DNA of 64,000 nt, taken from NCBI GenBank assembly GCA_029266945.1, contig JARIED010000007.1:1-64000 (forward strand), read 5' to 3'. The notes beneath the pieces were generated by a model. It ran no database searches and was not told the origin of the DNA. It was given only the letters and a program-made list of their open reading frames with translations. A program made the position numbers and the translations under genes. Source of the DNA: Slackia sp. GTDB taxonomy: Bacteria > Actinomycetota > Coriobacteriia > Coriobacteriales > Eggerthellaceae. Of the stretch, positions 3,207 to 7,099 are shown piece by piece (within the stretch, counting starts at the first letter, position 1; every line of letters begins with the position of its first letter).

Positions 3207-3261
3207 ATCGACTCCCTTTCAAACGGACAGAAACCATAATCCTTTGATGAATAGCCGTACG

Positions 3262-3289
3262 AGTATACCTCGCACAGATCAAAAGTAAA
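3262..3289 (-). promoter_or_regulatory. promoter of the rpmH operon
   Basis: On the minus strand TTTACT (complement of 3284-3289) is separated by 16 bp from TATACT (complement of 3262-3267). It points toward rpmH with about 50 nt of leader. It also marks the left border of the origin DNA. Confidence 0.55.
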
Positions 3290-4308
3290 GCATTTTTTCC
3301 TTATTCAACAGGGACAAGACGGAAAACACCGCATGAAAGGCAGTCGGACGCATAGCCCTGGCTCGCCTTTCCGCAACCGCCTACCACTATATATATGTAT
3401 AGAAGCGCCATCTTGTCGCACATGGAGTGCCAGAAGACCAGGCATGAAGAGACATCGTCCCGATCGGCGTGCCCCGAGAAAAAACTCGACGGCGGCCAGG
3501 GCTGCCGCGCGAAAAGTCTGTCGGATCGGCTGGCGGCGACCTTGCACGCATGCGCGCGCATGCGACAGGAAAAGACGAGGCTCTTTTCCGGGCAAAACGA
3601 ACGAATCGCGAAAACGTTTTCCGCACGATGCACGCCGGCAGACGCGGCAAAGGGCGGAATTTTCCTCTTCCACCGCAACGCTATGGAAAACCCCTCTCGG
3701 TTTCAGAAAAGGTATCCACTTGATCTCCAGGATTTCGTGAAAAGAATTTTTTTCACGAAGACCATCGTGGAAAAATGGAAAACTATCCTTCTTTCCACAT
3801 TACGTTTTCTTTCGCCCTTCCCTCTTATTGTGAGCATTGTTGAAATTGTTGAAAATAAAAAAGGTTTTTTCTTCACTATGTTGAAAACAATCTGTTAATT
3901 TCCTCAATGTCTAAAGTCAAACTCGTGAATTTTGTTGAAACAGTCGGAATAAAACCCTTCTTTTTAATATTTGAACTGGTGATTCTTTTTCTAACAATTT
4001 TGACGATAACAAGGTTGAAAATCCGGGGTATTTTGAAGTAAACCGTGGATAACCTTGTCAGATTCAGTCATTTTTCTTCCCTTCATTTTTCTTTTCCTCA
4101 CTTTTCAAGTCATTTTTCCTCAATGCAATTTCTCTTTTCTATAGTTTTCAATACTTTCAACACTTCCTGAATAAAAAGTTGAAATCGTGGAAAACCTCAG
4201 TCGGATTCAATGAAGAATTCCACACGGGGTGCAAAACGCCCTTGGAAAACTTTTCCACAAACCATAGAATGAGAAATCCACTCGGGAAAACGACGCGTCA
4301 TTTTTCCG
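3290..4308. other. upstream part of oriC (rpmH to GHKL-gene gap)
   Basis: About 1 kb without a convincing gene; the short overlapping frames at 3300-3900 match no protein pattern. DnaA-box-like 9-mers are TTATCCACG at 4044-4052 (minus), TTTTCCACG at 3766-3774 and 4186-4194 (minus), CTTTCCACA at 3791-3799 and TTTTCCACA at 4251-4259 (plus). The stretch 3830-4180 is strongly AT-rich against a 60% GC background. A perfect 10-bp inverted repeat TTCGTGAAAA / TTTTCACGAA lies at 3734-3759. Placement between rpmH and dnaA is the usual bacterial origin position. Confidence 0.8.
3839..4184. repeat. iterated GTTGAAA motif in the origin
   Basis: GTTGAAA occurs in direct orientation at 3839, 3848, 3880, 3934, 4014 and 4178 and inverted (TTTCAAC) at 4155-4161. 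Three copies extend to GTTGAAAA. They lie among the DnaA-box-like sites in the AT-rich tract. Another inverted copy lies at 7033-7039 beside the DnaA-trio-like tract. The motif does not resemble the DnaA box. Confidence 0.7.
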
Positions 4309-5154
4309 ATGGAAGCGCGTGTCGGCGAAAACATCGGAATCGGAAAAGCGTTGGAACACACTTCAAGCACACCGGAAAACGCACCTGACGTCGCCGCCTC
4401 CTTGAGCGGCGATTTTTCGCGTGCGCTCACGTCCGCGCGCATCGCGTGCTACGACGATTTCCGCAGCGCTCCCCGCATCACCGAAGTCAAGCCGAATTCG
4501 ACCGCGGAGTTCATCGAGGAGCTCGCCTCGACCACCTACGCCCAAGCCCAGCAGGCTGGAGGCGCCATCCCCTACACCGTTGTCAGGGAGGTCAGCGAGA
4601 ATTTCATCCACGCCCAATTCCGCGAAATCATCGTATCTATATATGACAATGGCAATACGATACGGTTCTCGGACCAGGGCCCCGGCATAGCCCAGAAGGA
4701 AAAGGCCCAGATGCCCGGATTCTCTTCGGCGGTCGAACCGATGAAGAAATACATCCGCGGCGTCGGAAGCGGGCTTCCCCTGGTCAAAGAGTACCTTTCG
4801 TTTTCGCACGGCCGCATAACCATCGAGGACAACCTCACCACGGGCGCCGTCGTCACCATCAGCATCAACCCTGACGACGGCCGCGAACCGCCGCGCAAGC
4901 AAGAGCCGCCGCAGCCCAAGCCCAAACGAAGCGCCTTGGTGCCGCCGCTCACCGATAGAGAGAAAGACATCCTCTATCTTTTGATGAAAGACGGGTCGCT
5001 CAGGCTCACCGACATCAAAAACGAGCTCGAGCTCAGCCCCAGCACCGTTCACCGAGCACTGACGAATCTCGAAGAAGCGGGACTGGTCGAAAGCGTCGGG
5101 AAAATCAGAACGCTGACGGAACTCGGACGCCGGATTGCAGGAAAGCTGTTCTGA
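4309..5154 (+). CDS. GHKL-type ATPase fused to a winged helix-turn-helix, beside dnaA
   Basis: 281 residues. The middle part looks like a histidine-kinase-type (GHKL) ATP-binding fold: N-box REVSENFIHA (93-102, Asn98), SDQGPGI (121-127) and a glycine-rich lid GVGSGL (151-156). No phosphoacceptor-His dimerisation domain or membrane segment is present, so this is not an ordinary sensor kinase. A proline-rich linker (190-212) leads to a C-terminal winged helix (214-281; LTDIKNELELSPSTVHRAL as recognition region). No good Shine-Dalgarno precedes ATG 4309, so the true start may be internal. It reads toward dnaA, 76 bp away. It is probably an ATP-dependent DNA-binding regulator; the target is unknown. 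Confidence 0.8.
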   Translation: MEARVGENIGIGKALEHTSSTPENAPDVAASLSGDFSRALTSARIACYDDFRSAPRITEVKPNSTAEFIEELASTTYAQAQQAGGAIPYTVVREVSENFIHAQFREIIVSIYDNGNTIRFSDQGPGIAQKEKAQMPGFSSAVEPMKKYIRGVGSGLPLVKEYLSFSHGRITIEDNLTTGAVVTISINPDDGREPPRKQEPPQPKPKRSALVPPLTDREKDILYLLMKDGSLRLTDIKNELELSPSTVHRALTNLEEAGLVESVGKIRTLTELGRRIAGKLF

Positions 5155-5230
5155 ACCCGACGCGAAAAAGCGTCACGAAACACGATATTCATCCTCTGAC
5201 GAGGGTTTTTAAGGAAAAGGTCGGATAACG

Positions 5231-6901
5231 ATGGTAGATTCCAGCAATCTTTACGAAACATGGCAGCTCGTCTGCAACCAGGTCAAGGGCTACGATTCCG
5301 TCAACCCCGTGCAGGTCGACGCCTTCTTCAGCCGCCTGCAGCCGCAGGCCATCTCGGACGGCTTCCTCATCGTGACCGCCGATACCGCCTTCATCAAAAG
5401 CCAGGTCGAACGCCGATTCATGACCACCATCCAGCAGGCCCTCAAAGACCTGTTCGGAATCGACTACCTGGTCGAAATCGAAGTCGACCCCATGGGCGAT
5501 GCTGCGGCGGGCGCCCCCGTTCAGATGACGGCCCCCGCCGCAGCTCCCGCTCCCATGGCTCCCGCTCCCGTGCCGGTACATCCTTTCGCAGGGAGCGTCG
5601 CCGCGCCGCAGCAGACAGTCGCCGAAACGCAGCCGGCGCCGGTCCAGGCGCATCACACGGGCACGACCCAGCCCATCCCGCCTGTTCAGGCGCAGCCCAT
5701 GCCAGCAGAGGAAGCACCCGACGCAACCGATGCCGCAGCGTTTCCGATGACCGCCGGCGAAGAAACCGAATTCGTCGAGCAGGTCCTTCCTTCGCCGCGC
5801 GGCGCCAACGCACGCCATCCGCGCAATGCGGTCAACGACACCGCCCTTCTTGCTTCGGCGCTCACGTTCGAGACCTTCGTCGTCGGCAACTCCAACCGTC
5901 TGGCGTATTCCATGGCCGTCGCGGTAGCCGAAGAACCGGGCAAGAAGAACCTCAACCCGCTGTTCATCTACGGCCGCAGCGGCCTGGGCAAAACCCACTT
6001 GCTGCGCGCTATCCAGAACTACATCATCGCGACGAATCCCCAGATGAGGGTCGTTTATATCGACTCTTCCGAATTCCTGTCCGACTACACGGCGGCCGTC
6101 GTGGCGCACGACAAAAACAAGGACAGCTACCTGAACTTCCAGAACCGCTACCTCGACGCCGACGTCCTGCTAATCGACGACGTGCAGAAGTTCCAGGGCA
6201 AATCCGCTACCGTCGATATCGTGTTCCAGCTGTTCAACAAGTTGACCGACATGGGCAAACAGGTCGTTCTGGCCGCCGACCGCGCGCCGAAGACGATCGA
6301 CATCGACGAACGCTACACGAGCCGCTTCAACTCCGGCGGAACCTGCGATATCCAGCCGCCGGAGGTCGAAACCAAGCTGGGCATCATCAAGGGATTCATC
6401 GAGGAATACCGTTCTTCGGAAAACGCCTACGACCTCTACGTGCCCGAAGATATACAAATGTATATAGCCGAGATCTCGAGCTCCAACGTCCGCGAGCTGA
6501 AAAGCGCGGTGACCAAGGTCATTTCGCAGATCACGTACTTCAACAACCCGGACATCTCGCTGCCCGACGTGCGCGTATTGCTTGAAAACCACTTCCTTTC
6601 CGGCGGCTCCAAGCGCCTCGACGTGGCCAGCATCCAGAAGGAAGTCGAACGCTACTACAAGATCAGCCACGCCGACCTGGTAGGCAAGAAACGCTCACGC
6701 AACATCGCCTACGCGCGACAGGTCGCTATGTATCTTTGCCGCCAGATGCTCGATATTCCCTACAACGACATCGGCAAACGCTTCGACCGCGACCACTCCT
6801 CCGTCATGTACTCCGTCGGCCAGGTCGAAGAGAAGCTCACGAAGAGCCGGGAGCTTCAGGAAGAGATCGAATTGATCATTAAGAACATTAGGGAAAACTA
6901 G
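5231..6901 (+). CDS. dnaA: chromosomal replication initiator protein DnaA
   Basis: 556-residue AAA+ initiator that binds DnaA boxes and melts the origin. Domain I occupies about residues 1-85. A long Ala/Pro/Gln-rich linker follows (90-190). The AAA+ core has Walker A YGRSGLGKTH (247-256) and Walker B VLLIDDVQ. Domain IV ends with IGKRFDRDHSSVMYS, a variant of the DnaA signature (DHSSV instead of the commoner DHTTV). The linker makes it longer than E. coli DnaA (467), as in other high-GC Gram-positives. AAGGAAAAGG precedes the ATG. Confidence 0.98.
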   Translation: MVDSSNLYETWQLVCNQVKGYDSVNPVQVDAFFSRLQPQAISDGFLIVTADTAFIKSQVERRFMTTIQQALKDLFGIDYLVEIEVDPMGDAAAGAPVQMTAPAAAPAPMAPAPVPVHPFAGSVAAPQQTVAETQPAPVQAHHTGTTQPIPPVQAQPMPAEEAPDATDAAAFPMTAGEETEFVEQVLPSPRGANARHPRNAVNDTALLASALTFETFVVGNSNRLAYSMAVAVAEEPGKKNLNPLFIYGRSGLGKTHLLRAIQNYIIATNPQMRVVYIDSSEFLSDYTAAVVAHDKNKDSYLNFQNRYLDADVLLIDDVQKFQGKSATVDIVFQLFNKLTDMGKQVVLAADRAPKTIDIDERYTSRFNSGGTCDIQPPEVETKLGIIKGFIEEYRSSENAYDLYVPEDIQMYIAEISSSNVRELKSAVTKVISQITYFNNPDISLPDVRVLLENHFLSGGSKRLDVASIQKEVERYYKISHADLVGKKRSRNIAYARQVAMYLCRQMLDIPYNDIGKRFDRDHSSVMYSVGQVEEKLTKSRELQEEIELIIKNIREN

Positions 6902-7099
6902 GGCAAAACCCGGGAAAGAGCGTGGAAAGAAAATTCGGCTCCGGAATCCGGTGGAAATCGGTGGGATCCCGGAAACAAGTATTCAGCCGTCATTTTTTAA
7001 TGATGACCAGCTGAAACGCCGAATTTTCTTCATTTCAACCGTCCTTATTATTACTACTATTCTAATTACTCTACCTTTCTAGGAAGAAGGGATACCGGC
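6902..7099. other. downstream part of oriC (dnaA-dnaN gap, DnaA-trio-like tract)
   Basis: 198 bp gap. DnaA-box-like CTTTCCACG (6921-6929, minus) and ATTTCCACC (6950-6958, minus) are followed by an inverted GTTGAAA copy (7033-7039), a short CGTCC spacer and TTATTATTACTACTA at 7045-7059. Its complement reads as five 5'-TAG/TAA triplets, the pattern of the DnaA-trio element described in Bacillus subtilis, whose unwinding site also lies between dnaA and dnaN. The stretch 7040-7080 is very AT-rich. dnaN's ribosome site (AGGAAGAAGG) ends the gap. Confidence 0.65.

Follow-up and report, generated by a model that had tools for sequence, protein, structure and literature searches.

A GHKL-ATPase/winged-helix family encoded directly before dnaA in three phyla: a candidate modulator of the dnaA operon or of the origin

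Introduction

Outside E. coli, Bacillus and Caulobacter, the control of dnaA and of the initiation of replication is largely an open subject. A stretch of 64,000 nucleotides from a Slackia sp. (Actinomycetota, Coriobacteriales, Eggerthellaceae; contig JARIED010000007.1), referred to here as the window, raises the question of why a protein that combines an ATPase fold with a DNA-binding fold should be encoded within the origin region, as the gene immediately preceding dnaA. The gene has been given the working name NDA, for 'neighbour of dnaA', and belongs to a genuine family that had no name before. The protein is not covered by any Pfam or NCBIfam model, and the open-access papers searched contained neither a description of the gene nor experimental work on any of its members. 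Present in single copy and fixed right before dnaA in three phyla, NDA is a strong and unexamined candidate regulator.

The NDA gene and its product

NDA occupies positions 4309 to 5154 of the forward strand and is an intact open reading frame of 281 codons with an ATG start. The exact start is uncertain by about 15 codons, as a clear Shine-Dalgarno site is absent and an in-frame TTG is the apparent start in some relatives. Comparison of the window with one congener gives a dN of 0.104 and a dS of 1.256 (dN/dS of about 0.08), which indicates purifying selection and thus a real gene. The original prediction, made from the letters of the window alone, described a GHKL-type ATPase joined to a winged helix before dnaA, placed its N-box and glycine lid, and saw no phosphoacceptor domain; all of this is borne out by Pfam matches, by intact motifs at the positions named (E94-A102 and G151-L156) and by an AlphaFold2 model built with 113 orthologues (mean pLDDT 87.8). 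The model presents two confident domains, with a disordered N-terminus (residues 1-35) and linker, and contains no phosphoacceptor or phosphotransfer helices.

The first of these domains is a GHKL (Bergerat-fold) ATPase domain comprising residues ~38-190 (positions 4420 to 4878, forward strand), with a pLDDT above 90 over most of its length. Residues 89-187 match HATPase_c (PF02518) with an E value of 3.3e-9, above the Pfam gathering cut-off, and the same family is matched by all 35 of the 35 members scanned. The motifs of the ATP site are all intact, including the N-box (E94..N98..H101 A102), the G1 box (D122-x-G124-x-G126) and the G2 box (G151-x-G153-x-G155 L156). Across the phyla represented by 113 homologues, N98, H101, D122, G124, G126, G151 and G155 are invariant; at least 90% of these homologues also have E94.

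The ATPase domain is followed by a disordered, proline-rich linker (residues ~191-212, positions 4879 to 4944, forward strand; pLDDT of about 50), which in some orthologues (L087, L088, L092, L094 and L017) grows to ~150-220 residues. These longer stretches are Q/P/G/A-rich disorder, and the presence of an extra domain within them was rejected on these grounds. They resemble the low-complexity domain II of the DnaA encoded in the window. The C-terminal domain (residues 213-281, positions 4945 to 5151, forward strand) is a MarR-like winged helix. Several Pfam winged-helix families match residues 214-263, among them HTH_IclR (E 7.4e-9) and HTH_5 (E 1.3e-8), and VIA-align superposes the domain on MarR-family chains with a Z of ~14 and an rmsd of 0.7-1.0 A over 69 residues. 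This alignment is restricted to the winged helix alone, the helical dimerisation arms of MarR repressors being absent from the NDA model, so that NDA, if it pairs, would need to do so through its ATPase domain. The residues of the recognition helix (STAYRDL) and of the wing (GKRxLT) are conserved, which only suggests that NDA binds DNA.

Comparison with known ATPase families

The best structural match to the whole model is 3LMM (DIP2311 of Corynebacterium diphtheriae), a protein with AlbA_2, HATPase_c_4 and winged-helix domains. In both proteins a GHKL domain precedes a C-terminal winged helix, and the match spans both domains (Foldseek E 1e-7 over 275 columns; VIA Z of 14.3 on the ATPase part). 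The likeness is nevertheless distant, with an identity of 15-17% and a different placement of the domains (Foldseek rmsd of 11). In addition, 3LMM has ~550 residues and an extra N-terminal region that NDA does not possess: in NDA the ATPase domain is preceded by ~38 mostly disordered residues instead of an AlbA_2 domain. To our knowledge, proteins of the 3LMM type are not linked to dnaA.

The ATPase domain is also reminiscent of two groups of signalling proteins. With the anti-σ kinases SpoIIAB and RsbW it shares a soluble GHKL domain and a glutamate four residues before the N-box asparagine (N-4), a catalytic-type residue that is a feature of anti-σ kinases and of GHL ATPases. With sensor histidine kinases, such as sporulation kinase B (3d36) and HK853, it shares the ATP-binding fold with its N, G1 and G2 boxes. 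The Pfam match to HATPase_c, low-scoring hits against many histidine kinases and, in 23 of the 35 members, a weak hit of the SpoIIAB profile would fit a protein of a known signalling family (a sensor kinase or an anti-σ factor) in which the winged helix is incidental. Such an assignment is nevertheless very improbable. The scores lie far under the cut-offs, both for SpoIIAB (TIGR01925), with 25.1 bits for the first member scanned where 135 are required and no place in the list of the 25 top-scoring families for the protein of the window, and for the histidine-kinase families (~15-30 bits against cut-offs of several hundred). Unlike sensor histidine kinases, NDA lacks a dimerisation/histidine phosphotransfer domain, a sensor and a membrane segment, and the AlphaFold2 model shows no phosphoacceptor helices. 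Unlike SpoIIAB and RsbW, it possesses a DNA-binding domain and adjoins no sigma or anti-anti-sigma gene; its neighbours are dnaA and rpmH. The profile searches did not place NDA in any named anti-σ or sensor family; such a placement would have spoken against the original prediction.

Linkage of NDA to dnaA

In the window, NDA is preceded by rpmH, which is divergent, and followed by dnaA (positions 5231 to 6901, forward strand; 556 residues), from which it is separated by 76 bp (positions 5155 to 5230). The downstream gene has the sequence of a DnaA and is orthologous to the dnaA found 3' of NDA in 208 loci. A pattern scan covering 84,980 species led to 441 confirmed relatives of NDA, and loci were fetched for the best 80. 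Altogether, 224 loci were fetched, some genomes being included twice (169 upstream regions are non-redundant). In 208 of them NDA is followed directly by a co-directional dnaA, in 14 the contig ends first, and in 2 dnaA is adjacent but divergent. The original prediction had asked whether the gene is always beside dnaA in Coriobacteriia; the linkage holds, and does so far outside that class. The two divergent loci (L015 and L113) come from one genome, G035, in which recF-dnaN-dnaA is flipped (L113:2761-5658); NDA and dnaA are several hundred bp apart there, and NDA still lies between dnaA and rpmH. Several finished genomes (e.g., L008, L030 and L066) have a record that ends with NDA, directly before an origin numbered from dnaA.

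Spacing is short as well as regular. In the 156 non-redundant loci where it could be measured, the gap between NDA and dnaA has a median of 17.5 bp, and is of 30 bp or less in 91 loci and of 100 bp or less in 137, from which it follows that the two genes are very probably co-transcribed. At the head of this predicted dnaA transcription unit, NDA lies 3' of the DnaA-box region.

From the perspective of their distribution, NDA homologues linked to dnaA are found in deep Actinomycetota, in Sysuimicrobiota and in part of a Bacillota phylum. Homologues were detected in 51 of the 61 genomes from the order and, at the level of the phylum, in 119 of the 296 sampled. Among Sysuimicrobiota, the phylum of the CSP1-3/ANGP1 genomes, 38 of 43 genomes have one, as do roughly 31 of 299 in the phylum that contains the Clostridia. 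A profile of 113 members found no hidden NDA beside dnaA in genomes of the Actinomycetes type. Each genome with NDA has one strong copy, the remaining matches being weak GHKL or HTH proteins.

NDA could also be an ordinary regulator with targets elsewhere, which sits beside dnaA only because the region rarely rearranges. The rpmH-dnaA-dnaN region is indeed conservative in general, but two observations render this reading unlikely. On the one hand, no full-length orthologue unlinked to dnaA, of the scattered kind that would have contradicted the original prediction, was found in the genomes searched. On the other hand, the NDA-dnaA pair persists where dnaA has been split from dnaN. In 11 loci from ~10 Eggerthellaceae genomes (L095 and L114, which show the full layout, and L012, L013, L017, L019, L020, L021, L023, L028 and L033) the order is dnaN(-) NDA(+) dnaA(+), and in the contigs that reach as far as rpmH (L095 and L114) this gene lies 3' of dnaA. 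Relative to dnaN, NDA and dnaA have been inverted together as one block, which breaks the dnaA-dnaN order and keeps that of NDA and dnaA. In these ~10 genomes the linkage of NDA to dnaA has outlived that of dnaA to dnaN. The linkage of the family to dnaA is exceptional, and its members are probably nucleotide-binding, DNA-binding regulators in kind.

DnaA boxes and the search for an operator

The gap between rpmH and NDA (positions 3208 to 4308) holds a putative half of the origin together with the promoter region. Its DnaA-box-like sites in the window are TTTTCCACA at 4251 on the forward strand, TTWTCAACA at 3847 and 3879 on the reverse strand, and seven copies of GTTGAAA, against 0.6 expected. 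The gap between dnaA and dnaN (positions 6902 to 7099) would be the second half by analogy, as boxes are enriched in the same gap of relatives. Across relatives, the consensus TTWTCCACA reaches a density of 3.7/kb between rpmH and NDA and of 4.2/kb between dnaA and dnaN, compared with only 0.07-0.09/kb within the NDA and dnaA genes. The NDA-dnaA gap has almost no DnaA boxes in relatives and lacks a consensus box in the window. This distribution agrees with the suggestion that NDA is placed between the two halves of the origin, with the qualification that just 38 of 113 dnaA-dnaN gaps contain a consensus box.

The seven GTTGAAA repeats had been proposed as the binding site of NDA, an idea that had to be abandoned, since the copies peak where NDA has been lost: they are most numerous (7, 9 and 9) in three congeners without NDA, and number just 0-5 in the other congeners that keep it, with none in G002, which has NDA. 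Both origin gaps, unlike the two genes, are enriched in TTWTCAACA, whose opposite strand contains GTTGAA; this distribution is like that of TTWTCCACA. TGTTGAAAA and TGTTGATAA rank among the most enriched words in origins. The GTTGAAA repeats are therefore best read, on their sequence and distribution, as variant DnaA boxes.

An operator was also searched for clade by clade, by word enrichment with DnaA boxes masked and by inverted dyads. The search yielded promoter-like words and clade-specific elements only, and no operator common to all clades was found in the rpmH-NDA gap beyond DnaA boxes and sigma-70-like promoter elements. That none was found near dnaA is a point in favour of a regulator with targets elsewhere. 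A Rubrobacter-like family (f22, L055-L068) displays a rigid array, in which three DnaA boxes are spaced 12 bp apart (+,-,-). In the same loci, a TGCAAA lies 47 bp after the start of the first box, and a second TGCAAA usually lies ~130-210 bp before NDA. This Rubrobacteraceae element is a candidate NDA site, and could equally be a promoter or an unwinding element.

Losses of NDA in the window's genus

Two genomes of the window's genus (G001 and G004) have rpmH and dnaA and no NDA, and in a third (G007), whose DnaA is 92% identical, NDA is reduced to ~69 decaying N-terminal codons. The dN/dS values of this remnant are 0.35/0.72, against 0.05/0.49 for dnaA. Nucleotide alignment of the congeners with a loss indicates that the body of NDA was deleted while the origin region and dnaA were retained, and on the DnaA tree the absences require three separate changes. 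In the three congeners without NDA, DnaA is 78-92% identical and displays no obvious damage. At least three separate losses in which dnaA and the origin were kept imply that NDA is accessory, and not essential, in this genus, and its role as an essential replication factor is rejected there. Loss without concomitant loss of dnaA is also what would be expected of a regulator acting elsewhere. Natural losses among close relatives additionally provide ready-made comparison species, which makes the question directly testable.

Not every absence represents a loss. Eight further genomes of the order that gave no NDA hit (G017, G037, G038, G043, G044, G047, G058 and G059) are rejected as losses and are ascribed to missing contigs, because dnaA is also absent from their assemblies. 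In a different family (f25), one genome (G074, locus L241) has dnaA and rpmH and no detectable NDA, while G102, of the same genus, has it; this is probably a further loss.

Proposed role of NDA

The reading that we favour, with a probability of roughly one half, is that NDA is an ATP-gated, DNA-binding modulator of the dnaA operon or of the origin. According to this model, the GHKL domain would bind ATP and probably dimerise upon doing so, which would bring two molecules together, and the ATP state would set how the winged helices on their flexible tethers pair and how strongly they bind DNA. Their target would lie in the rpmH-NDA gap, close to the promoter of the operon and to the array of DnaA boxes, and binding would tune the expression of NDA-dnaA and/or the activity of the origin to the nucleotide state of the cell. 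NDA would modulate initiation and would not form part of the essential machinery. This modulator role is favoured by the adjacency to dnaA in every locus that could be judged, by the short median gap and the single strong copy per genome, by the concentration of DnaA boxes just upstream of NDA, by the joint movement of the pair in the 11 inverted loci, by the invariant residues of the ATP site together with a confident MarR-like winged helix, and by largely coherent lineage groups in the protein tree. It is disfavoured by the absence of an operator common to all clades, by the three or more losses with dnaA and the origin kept, and by the divergent arrangement in one genome (L113).

Alternatively, NDA may act directly on DnaA or on the orisome, as a SpoIIAB-like or PDK-like kinase or as an ATP-driven clamp, the winged helix merely holding it at the origin. 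The predicted co-expression with dnaA at a near-constant spacing, the conserved catalytic-type glutamate E94 at N-4 and a linker of up to ~220 disordered residues, which suggests tethering over rigid coupling, are all compatible with this possibility. It is rather doubtful, however, as the winged helix is well kept, fitting a real DNA target, and as the DnaA of the three congeners that lost NDA appears undamaged.

There is a precedent for a gene of the origin region that proved to encode a replication factor: DciA, a replication protein encoded in the mycobacterial dnaN-recF operon, where it is essential (PMC5109545, PMC5720831). DciA differs from NDA in its fold and in lying on the other side of dnaA, and its essentiality in mycobacteria contrasts with the dispensability of NDA in some species.

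A broader and more tentative reading of the modulator role is that NDA represents an ancient, unrecognised class of initiation regulator. In early-branching Actinomycetota, Sysuimicrobiota and part of Bacillota, the protein would then be an origin-encoded, ATP-gated DNA clamp or switch that couples the nucleotide state to DnaA supply or to the assembly of the orisome; the model Actinomycetes would have lost or replaced it. In the NDA protein tree, most lineage groups hold together, a topology consistent with long vertical inheritance alongside dnaA. The titles of two metagenome-assembled genomes conflict with their placement in this tree, namely those of an Aeromicrobium sp. (L163) and of Slackia heliotrinireducens isolate FI88_64_8 (L121), and both are probably mislabelled.
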